Part shown: one piece after another, positions 3,683 through 33,892 of the stretch
Position numbering within the stretch: position 1 is the stretch's first letter
Layout of the letters: every line of letters begins with the position of its first letter
Source of the DNA: a virus
Virus record (IMG/VR): IMGVR_UViG_3300034774_000063
Location: 1 to 40,746 of that record
Length of the DNA stretch: 40,746 nucleotides
Reading direction: 5' to 3' (one strand)
Notes under the pieces: model-generated
The model's input: only the letters and a program-made list of their open reading frames with translations
Told to the model about the DNA's origin: nothing
Databases searched by the model: none
Translations under genes and position numbers: made by a program

Positions 3683-4519
3683 TTATTTACTGTCGCCATC
3701 CCAATTATTAATATCAAAGGGGCCAGAGTTCATGGGAGTACCATCGAACCAGTAATTACGATCAATAGAGATTCTACGCTGTCTCCAGTTATACCCTCTA
3801 AAAGACTTTCCTGTTAAGACTCCATACCTAAAATCAGGTCCGAAGTAGTTATCGTGGATAAAGTTGTTCTCATTTACGAAATTACCAGTCTTGCCCGTTT
3901 CGCCAAAATATATAGAATAGTTTCCACCTTCGAAGCGGTTGCCGTACACTTTTACGGATTTCATGTCTCCGACTTCGGCACTAAACATTAAACAAGCATT
4001 AGACTTGTAACCTTGTGATTCCCATTTGATAGCCATGTCCATAATATTATAACGGATGGTAACATTAGAGCCACCTCTACATTGAACAGCATCTGCATGA
4101 GGACTACCATTCTTATTGATTCCACATCTGGACAAATGACAATACTCAATGGTAGTTCCATCTTCACACTTAATCGCGTCTGCGCCACAATCATAAACAA
4201 TGCAGCGGCGAATGGTGGAGTAGTGAGCGTAAATCCCACAAGACACAGCACCGCGCACATCACAATCTTCAATCAGATTACCTGTGAATGGCTTGCCCGT
4301 ATTCTTATCAAAGTGCCTAGCATGGATTCCATACCAACTCCCGTTAGTACCATCACCAACAATAAAAGTACACCGACGAAGAATACAGTTATTCGCCTTA
4401 ATATTCAGTTGACCCGTGAAAGTTTGATCCTCAATCACAGTACCGTCCACAGTAATGTCTCCGAACGCAGGGGCAATAACCCCCATTAAACATAGCATAG
4501 CCATCATTAGTTTCTTCAT
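3683..4519 (-). CDS. Secreted right-handed parallel beta-helix protein
   Basis: A 278-residue protein with an apparent Sec signal peptide: MKKLMMAMLCLMGVIAPAFG followed by a likely signal peptidase I site after AFG. The mature part contains repeated short strands with Cys, Asn and Gly turns (CILRRCTF, IEDCDVRG, IRRCIVYDCG, IEYCHLSRCG, VYGNRFEGG, IHDNYFGP), the pattern of pectate-lyase-like parallel beta-helices. Such folds bind or cleave polysaccharides; no catalytic residues can be assigned. An AGGAG ribosome-binding site at about 4526 precedes the ATG, with a small hairpin (4531-4545) just upstream. A signal peptide would direct export from the infected cell rather than assembly into the virion. 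Confidence 0.75.
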   Translation of the reverse strand: MKKLMMAMLCLMGVIAPAFGDITVDGTVIEDQTFTGQLNIKANNCILRRCTFIVGDGTNGSWYGIHARHFDKNTGKPFTGNLIEDCDVRGAVSCGIYAHYSTIRRCIVYDCGADAIKCEDGTTIEYCHLSRCGINKNGSPHADAVQCRGGSNVTIRYNIMDMAIKWESQGYKSNACLMFSAEVGDMKSVKVYGNRFEGGNYSIYFGETGKTGNFVNENNFIHDNYFGPDFRYGVLTGKSFRGYNWRQRRISIDRNYWFDGTPMNSGPFDINNWDGDSK

Positions 4520-4550
4520 CTTTTTCTCCTCTCACTAGATGTGAGATTGT

Positions 4551-5171
4551 TCAACGCAGTTTAGGCCCTGAAACCCACACTACTAGCGATATTCGCTTCC
4601 CCTTAGTAACATTTTTAACTTCATGTCTTAGGAAAGAGGGAAACATTATTGCTGATCCTTTAGTGAGGTAGGAACGATCAATAATTCCCTGATAATCCAA
4701 CCAAAAATCACCACCTGAATACTCATCTTGACCTGTAAGCATTATAGAAAAACTAATTTTTCTCTGGTTATGTACTGGGCCTATATCTTGATGAGATCTA
4801 TAATAAGCGTCTTCTTGTGTTCCATCATATATGCCAAATTGAATTGGTTCAGCAAAACCTCTAATATCAAAATCCCAAAAATTTGTTTTACAGGCAGAAC
4901 TAAAAATCCTATCATACAACCATTCAAAATTTTCAACGGGCATCCATGCTATGTCAGTTTTGCGTACTGCATTATTCGATCCCTGAACCTCCCCTGACAT
5001 TACTGTTGCATCCCGTAAAACAGAGGTTTTGCCCCATTCTACAATCCTATCACACTCCTCATGGCTAAGAAGAGCCTTAAAATAATAGTAGGGGTTACTA
5101 ACATAGTTTGGTCCCTCCCTCCACTCCTCTGGGATATAAAATCTTAAAGCTGGCTTAGTCTGGGGGTTCAT
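4551..5171 (-). CDS. 2-oxoglutarate/Fe(II) dioxygenase, prolyl-4-hydroxylase type
   Basis: A 206-residue enzyme of the P4H/PiuC class common in marine phages. The iron ligands are His127 and Asp129 (SHQDIG) and His183 (LRHEV); Arg193 in GKRISLVVWV is placed to bind the 2-oxoglutarate carboxylate. The segment GGDFWLDYQG matches the jelly-roll core. It uses O2 and 2-oxoglutarate to hydroxylate a substrate, possibly a prolyl or lysyl residue of a phage or host protein; the substrate is unknown. The ATG follows a TATAAT box by only five bases, so the mRNA is probably leaderless. It is downstream of the tRNA cluster. Confidence 0.88.
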   Translation of the reverse strand: MNPQTKPALRFYIPEEWREGPNYVSNPYYYFKALLSHEECDRIVEWGKTSVLRDATVMSGEVQGSNNAVRKTDIAWMPVENFEWLYDRIFSSACKTNFWDFDIRGFAEPIQFGIYDGTQEDAYYRSHQDIGPVHNQRKISFSIMLTGQDEYSGGDFWLDYQGIIDRSYLTKGSAIMFPSFLRHEVKNVTKGKRISLVVWVSGPKLR

Positions 5172-5190: not shown

Positions 5191-5267
5191 TGGTACACCC
5201 ATCAGGACTTGAACCTGAAATCTACAGATTAGAAGTCTGTTGCATTATCCAATTATGCTATGGGTGC
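5191..5267 (-). tRNA. tRNA-Arg(UCU)
   Basis: A complete cloverleaf can be folded. The acceptor stem is GCACCCA/TGGGTGT (one G-U pair) with discriminator A and an encoded CCA end at 5193-5191. The anticodon loop is CTTCTAA (anticodon TCT) on an ACAGA/TCTGT stem, and the T-arm carries GGTTCAAGTCC. It reads AGA, a codon favoured in AT-rich phage genes. It lies five bases after tRNA-Leu. Confidence 0.95.
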
Positions 5268-5272
5268 TTAGT

Positions 5273-5349
5273 TGGTAGGACGAGCGGGACTTGAACCCGC
5301 ACTTGACAGATTTTAAGTCTGTTGCCTCTGCCAATTGGGCTACCGTCCC
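5273..5349 (-). tRNA. tRNA-Leu(UAA) with a short variable arm
   Basis: The acceptor stem is GGGACGG/TCGTCCT (with G-U at both ends), discriminator A, and CCA encoded at 5275-5273. The anticodon stem ACAGA/TCTGT encloses CTTAAAA, giving anticodon TAA, which reads UUA. The T-arm is GCGGG-TTCAAGT-CCCGC. The variable region is only five bases (CAAGT). Bacterial leucine tRNAs normally carry a long variable arm, so this is an atypical class I form. Identity as leucine rests on the anticodon and A73. Confidence 0.9.
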
Positions 5350-5350
5350 G

Positions 5351-5578
5351 TTACTCTTCTTCCTGCTCCTCTTCTACGAGCTTGAGATCAGAAGCTTCTT
5401 CCTCTTCTAAGCCCAACAGATTTTTAAGTTCAGCAATAGCAGTTGTCATTTCATCTTTCTGCTCTTGCATCATACCCAATTGTTGTTCTGCCCCTTCAAG
5501 GGCCGTAACTACCTGCTTCAAGCCGCCTTCTGCACCCTCTAGCATCCTGGAGAGATATTTTTCCGTAAGTTCATCCAT
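5351..5578 (-). CDS. Small acidic coiled-coil protein between tRNA genes
   Basis: A 75-residue protein (MDELTEKYLSRMLEGAEGG...). The central part, with repeated LEGAEQQLGMMQEQKDEM and AIAELKNLLGL, fits a coiled coil, and the last 20 residues are almost all Glu, Asp and Leu. An AAGGAAT ribosome-binding site precedes the ATG. Its stop lies one base before tRNA-Leu, so the message and tRNAs are probably processed from one transcript. The function is unknown. Confidence 0.7.
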   Translation of the reverse strand: MDELTEKYLSRMLEGAEGGLKQVVTALEGAEQQLGMMQEQKDEMTTAIAELKNLLGLEEEEASDLKLVEEEQEEE

Positions 5579-5608
5579 ATTAAATTCCTTTTATTGTTAT
5601 AATGTGAT

Positions 5609-5684
5609 TGGTAGGACAGGGTAGAGTTGAACTACCTGCCAAAGCCTTATAAGGACTCTGCTCTAACCGATGAGCTACTGTCCC
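5609..5684 (-). tRNA. tRNA-Ile(UAU)
   Basis: The acceptor stem is GGGACAG/CTGTCCT with discriminator A and encoded CCA at 5611-5609. The D-stem is GCTC/GAGC. The anticodon stem GAGTC/GGCTT encloses CTTATAA, giving anticodon TAT, which reads AUA, a codon many hosts decode poorly. The T-arm is GGTAG-TTCAACT-CTACC. A CTATAATA box places the predicted transcription start almost at base 1 of the tRNA. Confidence 0.95.
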
Positions 5685-5690
5685 ATGCAG

Positions 5691-5698
5691 TATTATAG
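5691..5698 (-). promoter_or_regulatory. CTATAATA promoter box before the tRNA cluster
   Basis: The minus strand reads CTATAATA, and the TATAAT hexamer is followed by seven bases before the first base of tRNA-Ile at 5684. It lies directly downstream of the terminator of the preceding operon, so the tRNA group has its own promoter. Confidence 0.6.
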
Positions 5699-5715
5699 AG
5701 GCAGCGCGGAGCTTT

Positions 5716-5753
5716 ATAAAAAAAGCTCCCCTTAAATTTCTTTAAGGGGAGCT
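5716..5753 (-). terminator. Rho-independent terminator after the Clp-like gene
   Basis: On the minus strand, bases 5753-5741 (AGCTCCCCTTAAA) and 5736-5724 (TTTAAGGGGAGCT) form a perfect 13-base-pair stem with a GAAA tetraloop. A run of seven T residues (5724-5718) follows at once. This is the strongest terminator in the window and separates the Clp-like operon from the tRNA unit. Confidence 0.93.
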
Positions 5754-5790
5754 AATAGCGAAATTCCCACTCCGCAGAAAGGCGTAGAGC

Positions 5791-7131
5791 CTACCCCGCA
5801 GCTTGGTCTTCTATTTCCTGTAACACTTCTTGAATGTCTACAATCCTAAATTCATTATTTTTAATTTTTGGAGTATACAAATCTCCCTTCTTTTGGGGTA
5901 ATTTTCGCTCTAACAATGCCTGAGCAACTTTTGTAGCTATCTTATTTTTAATGAATCGTTTAATATTCCTAGCACCGTACTCCTCAGAATACCCATTCTC
6001 TACAATAAAATCTAATAGTGCCTTATACCGTTTAATAGGTATACCTCGTAAGGCTAACTTAGCAATTTTTCGCACACTATCTTTATCTAAAGTATTAAAG
6101 AAGATATAGTTGTCTATCCTGTTCATAAACTCAGCAGGAAACCTAGACTTTACTGAAGTTTTAATTTCATCTTTACATCCTGATACTCCAACTTCCTCAT
6201 TCCCAAAACCTAGTCTTCTGCCAGTCTTAGCTGTAGAAACACCCTGGTTAGAAGTAAATATAAAGATAGACTCCGTAAAATCTAGTACCCTACCCATGTT
6301 ATCTGTACAAGTCCCCTCATCTAACAAAGACAAAAGAAAATCATAAAACTTATGGTGGGCTTTCTCTATCTCATCAAAAAGAATAATCCATCTATTACTC
6401 TTCTCAGCTTTTTCAGACATAAGACTATTCTCGGAATGTCCTACATAGCCTGGGGGAGAACCAATTAACTTGGCATACTCATGAGCATTAGCATATTCAG
6501 CGCAGTTAAGCTTCCAGAAGTTACCGCTATACTTATTACCCAGCAACCTAGCAAGTTCTGTCTTTCCTACACCTGTAGGTCCAATAAAGAAAAAGGAAGC
6601 ATTTTTATACAAGCCACTCGCTATCAGCTTAACACTATCTACAATCCCTTCAATAGCTTCCTCTTGCCCAATTAGATTCTTTCTTAAGTAAGAGTCTAAA
6701 GTGTTTATGTCAGCTAAAGTATTAAGAGCTTTAGGAGAGGAGCTAGTTGGGGGAGTATCCCCCAGAGGACCAAAAATATCTCCTAAGTATGCTTGAATAC
6801 CTTCAACAAAAGTACCGTTGTTAATATCGGTACATACAAAAAACAAATCAAAGGTAGGATAAGCCTCTACAATAGATTTATATACCGCTTTAATTATAGG
6901 TACTCTATCTTCATCTTTGGGGAGGTTATTAAAAAACTCCTCTGGATTATGCAATAGCTTGTGCAGTAAAAAAGACTGATAACTTTCAATTGTTATAGGC
7001 TTCTTTAATAGACTAATTTTCTTTTTTATAGAAAAATATTGCTTCTTCTCTTCCTCCATACTAAGCTTTTTAATAAGGAGGACTAAATCAATTTCTTCGC
7101 ATACTACTTTATAAAACTTTTTATCGCTCAT
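5791..7131 (-). CDS. Clp/Hsp100-family AAA+ unfoldase with a ClpP-type docking loop
   Basis: A 446-residue protein with one AAA+ module like the second ATPase domain of ClpA/ClpC. It has Walker A GPTGVGKT (184-191), the pore loop GSPPGYVGH (224-232), Walker B IILFDEIEKAH (249-259), sensor 1 FTSNQG, an arginine finger in FMNRIDN, and sensor 2 in YGARNIKR. The tripeptide LGF (307-309) lies between sensor 1 and the arginine finger, where ClpA, ClpC and ClpX place the loop that binds ClpP. ClpB lacks this loop. The first 140 residues are not a Clp N-domain or first ATPase domain and I do not recognise them. It may unfold proteins, alone or with host ClpP. The ATG overlaps the upstream stop (ATGA) and a strong terminator follows. 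Confidence 0.88.
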   Translation of the reverse strand: MSDKKFYKVVCEEIDLVLLIKKLSMEEEKKQYFSIKKKISLLKKPITIESYQSFLLHKLLHNPEEFFNNLPKDEDRVPIIKAVYKSIVEAYPTFDLFFVCTDINNGTFVEGIQAYLGDIFGPLGDTPPTSSSPKALNTLADINTLDSYLRKNLIGQEEAIEGIVDSVKLIASGLYKNASFFFIGPTGVGKTELARLLGNKYSGNFWKLNCAEYANAHEYAKLIGSPPGYVGHSENSLMSEKAEKSNRWIILFDEIEKAHHKFYDFLLSLLDEGTCTDNMGRVLDFTESIFIFTSNQGVSTAKTGRRLGFGNEEVGVSGCKDEIKTSVKSRFPAEFMNRIDNYIFFNTLDKDSVRKIAKLALRGIPIKRYKALLDFIVENGYSEEYGARNIKRFIKNKIATKVAQALLERKLPQKKGDLYTPKIKNNEFRIVDIQEVLQEIEDQAAG

Positions 7132-29988: not shown

Positions 29989-30943
29989 CTTTGAGAGACC
30001 TATACCCTTTCATTAAAGTTTCTTTAGGAATTATAGAATTAGCCCTGTCAACATAGTCTTCAATAATCATTTCATTAATAGAAAATAAATTTCGCTCAGG
30101 TTCGTAAGCGGATATCTCCTCTTCATTAAATATGGGATTATACTTCACATCAATGTAAGGCACTTGCAGTTTATCATAGGGGATAGGGTAGTGATCTATG
30201 TCAACAAGGATACGAAGCATAGTAAACCACTCTGGGTCATTAATATCCTCTAAATTAGCTTCAATATCCTTAGCGGCATATACTAGATGACGGGGGCCAT
30301 GATTAAGGGTGCGAAGTGTAACCCCCTCATCTAAGATAGCATAAAAACTATCCTTAAATGCTTCTCCAAAGTTAGTGGTATAGGGAGTGCCTAGAATTGT
30401 AACATTTTCTTTCTCCAAGTATCCGTGAACATGACCCAAGAAAGTAGGAGTACGAAAATCAGAAAGCCTAATATTAAAATCAGCATCCCCAACAGAGTTA
30501 AGGGAACCATAATAGCCAAAGTGACCATAGACAGTATACCCAGCAGGAACTTCTTTAAGCAGTTTTTTAATATAATCTTCATCTTCGTAGTGAGGAATCC
30601 AAGCCCTCTCCCATTGGTGATCCACAGAATACTCTGTAATCACATCAGCATGATAATTATATAGACTTAAAGCAGTCACCCCATCATCAGCTTTAGTCTC
30701 GCTATCATGGTTTCCTCTAAGAATGGTTAGAGGTACATCCTTTCTCTTTAAATAATCTACAACTTCTTTAAGCGCGAGAAGAACACTAGGAGAAGGCTTT
30801 CTATACATCATTAAATCTCCCATGATGATAACCTCTGTAGGCTTCTCTTCTTGGAGAAGCCTAAGAATGCACTTCTTCTGTGCCTCTAGTAACCCTACAG
30901 GCTTATCTGTAAAATGAAGATCAGTTATTAGTAGAAGTCTCAT
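29978..30943 (-). CDS. 47: SbcD/Mre11-like nuclease (T4 gp47)
   Basis: A 321-residue metallophosphatase-fold nuclease. The five motifs are visible: ITDLHF (Asp8, His10), GDLMMYRKP (42-50), GNHDSE (77-82), YGHFGYYG (139-146) and LGHVHGY (169-175). The remaining C-terminal domain likely binds the Rad50-like partner encoded next. The ATG overlaps the upstream polymerase stop as ATGA, linking end processing to replication. Confidence 0.95.
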   Translation of the reverse strand: MRLLLITDLHFTDKPVGLLEAQKKCILRLLQEEKPTEVIIMGDLMMYRKPSPSVLLALKEVVDYLKRKDVPLTILRGNHDSETKADDGVTALSLYNYHADVITEYSVDHQWERAWIPHYEDEDYIKKLLKEVPAGYTVYGHFGYYGSLNSVGDADFNIRLSDFRTPTFLGHVHGYLEKENVTILGTPYTTNFGEAFKDSFYAILDEGVTLRTLNHGPRHLVYAAKDIEANLEDINDPEWFTMLRILVDIDHYPIPYDKLQVPYIDVKYNPIFNEEEISAYEPERNLFSINEMIIEDYVDRANSIIPKETLMKGYRSLKDED

Positions 30944-32025
30944 AATTGGGGTTTTCCATCCTTAAATTCTACGGGTTTTCCATCACCAAAAGAAGAACCC
31001 ACTTCAGCATCAATTGCTAAGGGCACATCAAAATGAATGTTAAAAGTGTCCTTAACAAAGGGGTAGTTTACAAGCTCATCATAGAGAATTTCTAGACATT
31101 TTTCAACATGGTTATCTTTACATACTACTTCTATACTATCGTGGACGGTAGCTACGGGGTAAGCCTCCACACCTTCCTCTCTAAGCCTTCTGTAAGCTCC
31201 CAGGAGCCCACATAAGAGAATATCTGACGCAGTAGACTGGATAGTGAAGTTAAGTCCCTGACGGAGCGCACGATTGACCACAGAGAAGTCCTTAGAATCT
31301 ACATTAGGAAGGTTTCTTCGTCTTCCAAAGATAGTGTATGCATGTTTATTAGTTTTAATATACTTATTCACGAAATCCATATACTCAAAGATTCCTGGGT
31401 ACACATTCTTGTAGTTAGCAATGATCTTCTTAGCTCTAGGGAGGGAAATGCCCGTAGTCTCGGCTAAGTTAAACGCCCCTCCTCCATATACAATAAGGAA
31501 AGAGACTGCTTTAGAGATTTGCCTCTCCTCTTTAGAGATTTTTTGCTTGTTAAATAGCATTCTAGCTGTATAAGTATGAAGATCCTCTCCATTATTAAAT
31601 GCTGTTTGCATATTACCTTCCTGGGCAATATGAGCTAGGACTCTAAGCTCCATAGCTGCATAGTCAATGGTGATAAACTTGTATCCCTTAGGGGCTATAA
31701 ACAAACTACGGATATTAGTATTAGTATCTCTAGGTAGTGTGTGAAATGAAACCCCCATAGCCTTTTGGGCTGAGTATGCTGCACAAGATAATCTACCAGT
31801 AGCAGTACCATCAAATCTATAATCTACATAAACCTTTGGTCTTTCATTATACTTAATGGCATTGGAAGTTCCTTTGATATAAGTCTTCTCCAGCTTTTGA
31901 GACTTGCGAAGTTCTAAAAGACCTTTGATAAAGTTTTGCGAAATTCTTAGGTCTTCTGTACTTTTCTCTTGGAGCAGAGCTTGGCTAATCCTTTTCCCCT
32001 CATCCCTATAGTTCCACTTACCCAC
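30940..32025 (-). CDS. polA: DNA polymerase A, C-terminal polymerase part (third of three frames)
   Basis: A 361-residue frame holding the palm and fingers of a family A polymerase. Motif A is DYAAMELR (121-128). Motif B has Arg168, Lys172, Phe176 and Tyr180-Gly181 in the normal spacing. Motif C is VHDSIEV with HDS at 295-297 where many family members have HDE. RFDGTATGRLSC-like sequence and NRALRQGLNFTIQSTASDI complete the domain. The start is GTG at 32025, overlapping the middle frame's stop by eight bases (GTGGGTAA). It needs the two upstream frames to make a normal enzyme. Confidence 0.93.
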   Translation of the reverse strand: MGKWNYRDEGKRISQALLQEKSTEDLRISQNFIKGLLELRKSQKLEKTYIKGTSNAIKYNERPKVYVDYRFDGTATGRLSCAAYSAQKAMGVSFHTLPRDTNTNIRSLFIAPKGYKFITIDYAAMELRVLAHIAQEGNMQTAFNNGEDLHTYTARMLFNKQKISKEERQISKAVSFLIVYGGGAFNLAETTGISLPRAKKIIANYKNVYPGIFEYMDFVNKYIKTNKHAYTIFGRRRNLPNVDSKDFSVVNRALRQGLNFTIQSTASDILLCGLLGAYRRLREEGVEAYPVATVHDSIEVVCKDNHVEKCLEILYDELVNYPFVKDTFNIHFDVPLAIDAEVGSSFGDGKPVEFKDGKPQL

Positions 32026-32497
32026 GCTTTTCTAATTCCTCTTCTATCTGTGCTAGTAATAGCTTTAGAGTGGGGGCAGATACAGACGGTGCCCCCTTCC
32101 CCGTCCTGTCAGGAGGGTACATCTCAAAGGCTCCCTCCCTAGTATATAATATCTCAATCAGATCGTTATTTGAAGACAGATTATCAGAAGTTTTTACCTC
32201 ATCAAACGCATACAAGCCATCTTCTTCGGTAATATTAGCATCTCTCAATTGTTTCCCTACAACTTTAAGCTGTTTCTCAGAAACATCCATCCCCTTGTAC
32301 TCCATAGCAACAAACATAGGGAGTGCTGGCATGATTAACTTTTCTAGTATCTTATCCATCCCCATCTCTGATAGCTTCTCGCTAATGAGATCAAAGATTT
32401 TAAGGGTAAAGTATGCATCAGCAGCATTACCCTCCACGCAATCAGAAAGAGCCATATTAGCCCAATCAAAAGTCTTAGGATTATTAACTGTAAGCAT
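32018..32497 (-). CDS. polA: DNA polymerase A, middle part (second of three frames)
   Basis: A 159-residue frame in a different reading frame from the parts on either side. It contains the exonuclease III-like motif around GNAADAYFTLKIF, whose Asp is a metal ligand of the 3'-5' exonuclease. Next comes the conserved MPALPMFVAMEYKGMDV segment that opens the polymerase domain, and the PSVSAPTLKLLL region. It starts at an ATG overlapping the upstream stop as TAATG. Alone it cannot fold as a complete domain, so association with the other two products, or a frameshift, is needed. Confidence 0.88.
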   Translation of the reverse strand: MLTVNNPKTFDWANMALSDCVEGNAADAYFTLKIFDLISEKLSEMGMDKILEKLIMPALPMFVAMEYKGMDVSEKQLKVVGKQLRDANITEEDGLYAFDEVKTSDNLSSNNDLIEILYTREGAFEMYPPDRTGKGAPSVSAPTLKLLLAQIEEELEKRG

Positions 32498-33519
32498 TAA
32501 AGATTCTCCAACTCATCAGAAAAGTATAGTTTTACGAGGTCCATCAGCCCTTTCGGAGCATTCTCATTAATAAAGTGATGCATAACTTTTGTATCCCAAA
32601 CATTACAAACCTCAATTCCATAGTTTAAAAGAAATTTAAGGTCAAACTTAGCATTGTGAAACACCTTCTTATTATTAGGGTTATTTAACATCTTCCTGAG
32701 AAGAACCCAAACCCTAGCGTAGTGGGGTTCCCCTTTTCGGAAGGGACTATCCTTATGATCCAAAGGAATTACCCAGTTAGTATCATTAGAAGAGAAAGCA
32801 ATCGTCTGAATACTATCCGTAAGGAAGTTCAATCCAGTCGTCTCAATATCAATAGCTACTGTGTCGGAAGTAGTTGATAGATAATCGGTTAGCTCCTCTA
32901 ACTCTCCTGTATCCTCCACCATCTTATAAGTAAAGTTTCCTTGGCTTTCTTTGCCGAGGATGTATTTTTCGTATGCGTTTCGTATGTCCGTTTCAAATAA
33001 GTATCTATGGCTAGGTTCTTTAAGAACAGAATAAGGATGATAGATAGGTACAACGATGCAAGAATGCCCACTATCTGTAATGTACTCATAAGAAGAACCT
33101 CTCTTCCCCATAATGCCGCTCTTTTTAACGAGCATCTTCATAGCTAAATTACCACATGCATAGATTAAGCGTGGCTTTACTTTATCTACTGTAGCTTCTA
33201 AGTGTTTCCTACATAAATTCATATTATCAGGAGACATATCTCCCTCTTTAACGGAGGGACATTTAATAGAAGCCGTGTACTGAACTCTACCAGGGTATAA
33301 ACTTTCCAGTAATTCCTTCTCTTTGTTAGAGAAAGGGTTCATAGATCCATACTTATACTTGAACGAGTCTGCGACGAAAAGAACATCTCCTTGAGAGAGT
33401 TTCTCATAATCCATGTAGGAATACTCTGGTTTATTCTGAGTTAAAACCGTACAGCCTTCGCATAAATCATTACTACAACTAGGTTTAAGACCAGAGTAAA
33501 GGTTTTCAAGCTCTTTCAT
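32497..33519 (-). CDS. polA: Uracil-glycosylase-like domain plus partial 3'-5' exonuclease (first of three DNA polymerase frames)
   Basis: A 340-residue frame. Residues 1-190 resemble family 4/5 uracil-DNA glycosylases: Cys20, Cys23, Cys87 and Cys103 keep the spacing of the iron-sulfur ligands, and YHPYSVLK resembles the HPS motif. The GEAPG-type catalytic loop is replaced by ADSFKYKYG. From 220 the exonuclease begins: DIETTG (224-229) and HNAKFDLKF (288-296). The frame ends before exonuclease motif III, which is in the next frame. Fusions of a glycosylase-like domain to phage family A polymerases are known. A CTATAATA box precedes the ATG by six bases. Confidence 0.9.
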   Translation of the reverse strand: MKELENLYSGLKPSCSNDLCEGCTVLTQNKPEYSYMDYEKLSQGDVLFVADSFKYKYGSMNPFSNKEKELLESLYPGRVQYTASIKCPSVKEGDMSPDNMNLCRKHLEATVDKVKPRLIYACGNLAMKMLVKKSGIMGKRGSSYEYITDSGHSCIVVPIYHPYSVLKEPSHRYLFETDIRNAYEKYILGKESQGNFTYKMVEDTGELEELTDYLSTTSDTVAIDIETTGLNFLTDSIQTIAFSSNDTNWVIPLDHKDSPFRKGEPHYARVWVLLRKMLNNPNNKKVFHNAKFDLKFLLNYGIEVCNVWDTKVMHHFINENAPKGLMDLVKLYFSDELENL

Positions 33520-33524
33520 AACGC

Positions 33525-33532
33525 TATTATAG
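33525..33532. promoter_or_regulatory. Shared bidirectional TATA box between polymerase and sigma-factor genes
   Basis: The sequence TATTATAG on plus is CTATAATA on minus. On minus the hexamer lies six bases before the ATG at 33519. On plus TATTAT lies five bases before the ATG at 33536. The two start codons are only 16 bases apart. Divergent transcripts from one nearly symmetrical box would both be leaderless. Confidence 0.6.
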
Positions 33533-33535
33533 GGT

Positions 33536-33892
33536 ATGGGTAAGAAGATGCATTACATTAACAATAAAAGATTTGAAGAAATCATCCCCTTGTACTTACA
33601 AAATCCAAGTGAGTACGAGGATGAGTTAATGGAGCTATTTGATCTCTTGATAACTAACATTCTAGAAAGCTTTAAATTTAAAATTGATAAAGATGATGCG
33701 AAACAGGAATGTTTTTTACTAGTACTAAAAACTCTTAAGAACTTCAAACCATCAAAAGGAAGTGCATTCAACTACTTTACTACGGTAATAGTGAATAATT
33801 TAAAATTGCTATACACTAAAAATAAAAAGTACCGCCAGAAGCTGGAAGAATATCAAGATCGTTTAGGAGATTCTAACCCTAGACTTCTATAG
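33536..33892 (+). CDS. gp55-like late transcription sigma factor candidate
   Basis: A 118-residue protein on the opposite strand to most genes. DDAKQECFLLVLKTLKNFKP followed by KGSAFNYFTTVIVNNLKLLY (about 53-93) fits sigma-70 region 2 as it appears in compact T4 gp55-like late sigma factors. There it binds RNA polymerase and melts a TATAAATA-type box. T4 gp55 is somewhat longer, and no region 4 is visible here, as in gp55. The start at 33536 is leaderless; ATG at 33548 is an alternative. It converges on the next minus-strand gene with a 40-base overlap. Confidence 0.6.
   Translation: MGKKMHYINNKRFEEIIPLYLQNPSEYEDELMELFDLLITNILESFKFKIDKDDAKQECFLLVLKTLKNFKPSKGSAFNYFTTVIVNNLKLLYTKNKKYRQKLEEYQDRLGDSNPRLL

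Follow-up and report, generated by a model that had tools for sequence, protein, structure and literature searches.

Can a family A DNA polymerase, a textbook one-chain enzyme, be made as three separate proteins, with one of the breaks falling inside the proofreading site? The question is raised by a 40,746-bp stretch of viral DNA (IMG/VR record IMGVR_UViG_3300034774_000063, positions 1 to 40,746; hereafter the window), the minus strand of which carries three consecutive open reading frames (ORFs), named A, B and C here, that together make up one family A DNA polymerase according to ORF and domain searches. We found the same division in 83 distinct loci, and the reading that we favor, with a probability of about 0.82, is that A, B and C are translated separately, as three subunits that would assemble into the phage replicase.

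Three genes share the parts of one polymerase

The genes, junctions and catalytic residues are located as follows, in window coordinates.

32497 to 33519, minus strand: gene A (ORF), 340 aa, family-4-like uracil-DNA glycosylase (UDG) domain and 3'-5' exonuclease through motif II
32018 to 32497, minus strand: gene B (ORF), 159 aa, exonuclease motif III, start of the polymerase domain and first thumb helices
30940 to 32025, minus strand: gene C, 361 aa, GTG start, thumb helix I, palm and fingers of the family A polymerase
32495 to 32499, minus strand: A/B junction TAATG, 1-nt overlap, from the sequence
32018 to 32025, minus strand: B/C junction GTGGGTAA, 8-nt overlap within a thumb expansion of ~40 residues, from sequence and alignment
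32506 to 32509, minus strand: Shine-Dalgarno (SD)-like GGAG, 8 nt upstream of the B start, in the last codons of A
33007 to 33303, minus strand: UDG-superfamily match in Pfam, A residues 73-171
32842 to 32850, minus strand: exonuclease motif I, D224-x-E226, invariant in the A alignment
32641 to 32643, minus strand: exonuclease motif II, D293 (HNAKFD), invariant in the A alignment
32417 to 32419, minus strand: exonuclease motif III, D27 of B (EGNAAD), invariant in the B alignment
31663 to 31665, minus strand: polymerase motif A, D121 of C (DYAAMELR), invariant in the C alignment
31138 to 31143, minus strand: polymerase motif C, H295-D296 of C (VHDS), invariant in the C alignment

A preliminary description of this DNA had reported three overlapping frames, the middle one opened by TAATG and the polymerase part by a GTG, with all catalytic motifs in order and the exonuclease cut between motifs II and III; the ORFs, the junction sequences and the alignments bear out these points.

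Pfam searches assigned A to UDG (1.9e-7) and DNA_pol_A_exo1 (5.6e-20), with a match to UDG structure 4zbx in the Protein Data Bank (2.1e-12), and C to DNA_pol_A (1.8e-74), with structure matches to Bst polymerase (1.6e-49) and Klenow (1.9e-42). B had no Pfam match of its own. An eight-sequence profile of B matched polymerase I structures (Klenow chain positions 165-292, E ~1e-4; Bst positions 166-245), which identifies B as the missing middle of the protein represented by A and C.

Residue invariance was judged in eight-sequence alignments of each of the three proteins. The carboxylates of a DEDD exonuclease (PF01612) are complete across two genes and all invariant: A contributes D224, E226 and D293, and B contributes D27. 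As the four carboxylates of motifs I-III are present, this divided site is a predicted proofreading exonuclease; in motif III, a Gly replaces the usual Tyr of YxxxD. C carries the palm and fingers motifs A, B and C of family A (PF00476) with the catalytic Asp, and its invariant polymerase residues are D121, R168, K172, F176 and H295-D296. At all loci the thumb is shared out between B and C, unlike the single chain of thumb and catalytic domain that is usual in family A, though not strictly defining. In the UDG domain, four Cys of A (C20, C23, C87 and C103), which we take to be the iron-sulphur cluster ligands of family 4 enzymes, are invariant too. Catalytic motif 1 is degenerate (VADSFKYKYG in the window vs GEAPGEQED in MW202455), so that A was not classed as an active family 4 UDG; the domain (A residues 20-162, window 33034-33462) may bind DNA or play a structural part without being catalytic.

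At the A/B cut, B starts shortly upstream of exonuclease motif III. Joined B-C aligns to Bst polymerase until B118 (chain position 244) and resumes at C29 (position 272), and between these points lie 69 residues in B-C against 27 in Bst, which places the B/C cut within the ~40-residue thumb expansion. In the alignment, four fused relatives with one uninterrupted gene each (FF47, Cozz, LysYB1 and MW202455) lack this expansion, whereas the clade of the window is split and has it. For this comparison the thumb segment PS(V/T)..(T/V)L was aligned by eye, because MAFFT misplaced it. Both cuts presumably sit at surface loops and would hence tolerate interruption.

The breaks recur in related phages

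The preliminary description had suggested looking for the same breaks in related phages, and they were found at the same place throughout. With C as the query, 13 relatives were retrieved; apart from the error-ridden L014, all are cleanly divided into A, B and C at identical residues. Alignment searches with C, B and A yielded 83 distinct loci with B and C, from IMG/VR and one single-cell genome, and no fusion at A/B or B/C was found among them: 83/83 are split, L319 being irregular in the count merely through the end of its contig. A search of genome contigs gave one relative, likewise split; the L078-like phages, considered as a possible fused lineage, were rejected because they are also split. 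The start regions of B and C are conserved in the eight-sequence alignments.

One member of the clade (L241/L139; QCKN01000003.1, 130,604 bp) lies within the Prochlorococcus single-cell genome AG-409-P03. As this contig is an independent type of data, and as the same breaks occur in 83 loci from many assemblies, sequencing errors are excluded as their source. The contig also provides a lead to the host, a co-sorted or contaminating virus being possible.

The junctions themselves vary in a way that bears on how the pieces are translated. At A/B, a 1-nt overlap (TAATG, once TGATG, within the pattern TA(A/G)TG or TGATG) was present in 39 of the 78 loci scored and inserted DNA in 39. The inserts, of ~150-2400 bp, are unrelated to the polymerase, and most of those examined consist of complete genes. 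L002 has one for a 91-aa membrane-like protein, coupled at both ends; L012 has one for a 62-aa coil-like protein, coupled via ATGA and TAATG; L011 has a glycosyltransferase gene together with a gene on the opposite strand; and L005 and others have a lipoprotein-like gene on the opposite strand. L268 has inserts at both cuts, a 2OG-Fe(II) oxygenase gene at A/B (4289-4846) and a DUF6445 gene of 200 codons at B/C (5399-6001), after which C starts at ATGA, so that A, B and C all stand apart there; its B is 61% identical to that of the window. The B/C offset was +8 in 54 of the 83 loci, +1 in 11, +4 in 7 and +23 in 5, with other values including -2. The phase of C relative to B consequently differs among loci (in 18/83, with offsets of +4 or +1), and the equal phase of A and C described earlier for this DNA holds in this genome but not as a feature of the arrangement.

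The codon before the A stop is variable (CTC, CTG, CTT, CTA, TTG, TTC), with no common slippery site at A/B, and neither a conserved slippery site nor a fixed direction of shift, as expected of programmed frameshifting, was found among the 83 loci. The inserted genes at both cuts, together with the variable offsets, exclude frameshifting as the common mechanism. An RF2-like +1 site was also considered, since GGAG followed by CTT TAA in the window resembles the RF2 arrangement, and was rejected because B is shifted to the -1 phase and relatives differ in that codon. With errors and frameshifting excluded, three separately initiated peptides remain; the earlier preference for a real arrangement over either of these is thus supported by the 83 loci, the inserts and the offsets.

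A homing endonuclease as the cause of the A/B split was rejected, as none was detected in the ten inserted proteins scanned. In L047, L050, L053, L059, L066 and L067 the inserts encode different proteins with a common stretch like MNxYExIGESIWNTYRSM, divergent afterwards, which perhaps serves as a leader that targets internal virion proteins to the head.

Selection and origin of the breaks

Relative to L002, dN/dS was 0.08 for A, 0.04 for B and 0.04 for C, that is, all three are under purifying selection. Each of the six records searched gave a single DNA_pol_A match, and a search of five contigs of 92-131 kb turned up neither PolB nor PolIII-alpha.

Judged by sequence comparison, A, B and C descend from one family A UDG-exonuclease-polymerase gene and are each separately started and stopped: the case is one of genes in pieces, that is, predicted separate ORFs from one ancestral protein, with 83/83 loci split and the nearest relatives examined fused. 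A tree of A+B+C placed 68 split loci on one side and four fused outgroups on the other; it was made by a quick method and its outgroup branches are long. The simplest reading is that both cuts would have arisen once, from a fused UDG-PolA, and no intermediate between the fused and three-part states was found among the loci examined. The A/B state, overlap or insert, switched at least eight times on well-supported branches and ~12 times overall; even with proteins 94% identical, the window has the overlap and L002 a 275-bp insert.

Expression signals and neighboring genes

An SD core lies upstream of B in 28 of 33 loci with A-B overlap vs 4 of 29 with inserts. A CTAT..ATAG element stands just upstream of the B start in 27/34 insert loci, and one of the same type upstream of A in 57/63 loci, against a background of 0.5% in each case; it was found upstream of B in none of 35 coupled loci and upstream of C in none of 69. 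As the element sits between divergent starts, one strand or the other, or both, could make use of it. The two features concerned in the window are the following.

33524 to 33532, minus strand: promoter-like CTATAATAG, 4 nt upstream of the A start, common to the divergent sigma-like gene
33536 to 33892, plus strand: divergent gene, not part of the polymerase, with a weak Pfam match to Sigma70_r2 (3.1e-5), barely past the cut-off

TATWATAG occurs at 25 sites in the window vs 7.6 (sd 2.8) expected, an enrichment of over three times. CTATWATAG elements lie 0-6 nt upstream of several starts and also between divergent genes, the sigma-70 region 2 gene adjoining the one at 33524-33532, and they possibly mark a class of promoters particular to the phage, whose transcripts would have a very short leader or none. 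Elsewhere in the window, three tRNA genes are present at 5194-5684 on the minus strand.

Weighing a three-subunit replicase

We propose that the A, B and C proteins would assemble non-covalently into the replicative polymerase of the phage. B would be the subunit that bridges the other two: from it would come both the motif III aspartate for the exonuclease in A and the thumb base for the palm and fingers in C. Coupled re-initiation would account for the translation of both downstream genes in the window, of B at TAATG, which has GGAG 8 nt before it, and of C at GTGGGTAA. Assembly is suggested by two precedents discussed below, the two-chain 43A/43B polymerase and the split NrdA. The stronger form of the proposal, an obligate three-subunit family A replicase with a two-chain proofreading site, a two-chain thumb and a bridging B across the whole clade, we would put at even odds; in such a replicase B could possibly couple polymerase and exonuclease, in a regulatory role.

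Several observations weigh against the proposal. The B gene of L059/L303 (one contig) is damaged by a deletion and loss of frame at L059 5590-6001, which may reflect natural decay or an error of assembly or reads; the B/C overlap of L059 is intact despite the lesion. The many frame breaks of L014 may likewise stem from faulty assembly or reads. When B and C were modelled singly in AlphaFold from the eight-sequence alignments, the pLDDT was only 49 and 56, respectively, and the models were discarded. The element upstream of B in insert loci may serve the opposite-strand gene instead. Finally, the large contigs may be incomplete, and another polymerase could be absent from them for that reason.

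The main rival, which we hold to be improbable, is that C alone is a minimal working polymerase, with A a separate DNA-binding or exonuclease protein, B a loose accessory and no stable three-part enzyme. Every polymerase motif does sit in C, and the exonuclease is separately encoded in some phages, such as the Kuravirus-like ones (PMC9965538). Without B, however, the exonuclease of A misses its motif III aspartate and C misses the first thumb helices. Moreover, B is as constrained as C in dN/dS, and thumb residues of B such as PSVSAPTLKLLL are invariant save one position.

Frameshifting at both junctions, with a full-length polymerase as part of the products, would suit the short overlaps and the common phase of A and C in the window. 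We consider it very unlikely, as A and B are parted by inserted DNA, mostly whole genes, in half of the loci and B and C by a gene in L268, as A/B has no common slippery site, and as the B/C offsets would demand shifts in different directions. There is similarly little to be said for a polymerase in decay, with the host or another enzyme replicating the phage: the damaged B of L059 would fit it, but all three genes are under purifying selection with invariant catalytic residues, the arrangement is retained over 83 loci, and no other polymerase was found in the large contigs.

Joining after synthesis has an almost negligible chance. Split inteins, acting on the protein, and group I or II introns, acting on the RNA, are both known in phage genes (PMC10580990, PMC3322345). 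Yet neither Pfam nor the alignments revealed an intein domain in any of the three proteins or extra residues of intein size at their ends, A being ~340 aa with an ELENL-like tail at its end. No intron family was detected by Rfam, either in the window or in nine relatives, and the coupled loci are without any intervening sequence. Two one-base sequencing or assembly errors in one intact gene, of which a compensating pair of breaks is the classic appearance, can practically be dismissed in view of the same breaks in 83 distinct loci including the single-cell contig, the conserved start regions of B and C, and the genes inserted exactly at the breaks.

Comparison with known systems

The nearest sequence relatives are phages with a fused UDG-exonuclease-PolA (FF47, Cozz, SPO1-like phages, PaBG), which has the same domain order as A-B-C; identities are 31-34% for C and 25-31% for A. 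The UDG domain of the PaBG PolA has been described before (PMC7412058).

A parallel to the three-subunit replicase proposed here is a replicative polymerase in separate chains in the T4-like Aeromonas phages 25 and 44RR; the split 43A and 43B of phage 25 co-purify and show polymerase activity (PMC2988022). They differ in belonging to family B, in consisting of two pieces, and in that the pieces are parted by an untranslated spacer or a homing endonuclease. Similarly, phage Aeh1 has an NrdA whose gene is in two parts and which is active as two chains (PMC2988022), although this is a ribonucleotide reductase split by the homing endonuclease mobE; no endonuclease appeared in the ten inserted proteins scanned here.

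The marine OM43 phages MEP401 and MEP402 encode a family A PolA as two ORFs that flank a small one (PMC10580990). These differ in having two pieces, no UDG and remote similarity, with the break, by alignment, directly after the motif A aspartate. MEP401 (L234 6111-8221) was therefore rejected as the same split, since its break lies at motif A, outside the thumb and the exonuclease; Rfam showed no known intron family around it. In Rhizobium phage L338C (L237 3848-6675), DNA polymerase I is annotated as two overlapping ORFs, with the break within the N-terminal UDG-exonuclease part, which represents another split or an error.

The literature yielded two-piece phage polymerases, but a family A enzyme in three pieces with its exonuclease site divided was not encountered, a weak negative as only open-licence papers were covered. 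Two-piece split polymerases and UDG-bearing PolA are thus already known, and the three-piece family A arrangement with a divided proofreading site is what we have not found described.

Implications

Surveys of polA in virus communities that require a full-length gene would miss this clade. If the proposal is correct, the junctions would be naturally tested cut points for split polymerases, and polymerase and proofreading functions could be separately studied and controlled. It would also mean that a replicative polymerase can be broken within an active site and within the thumb without loss, and that a natural three-chain family A polymerase exists, stable across large sequence distances.

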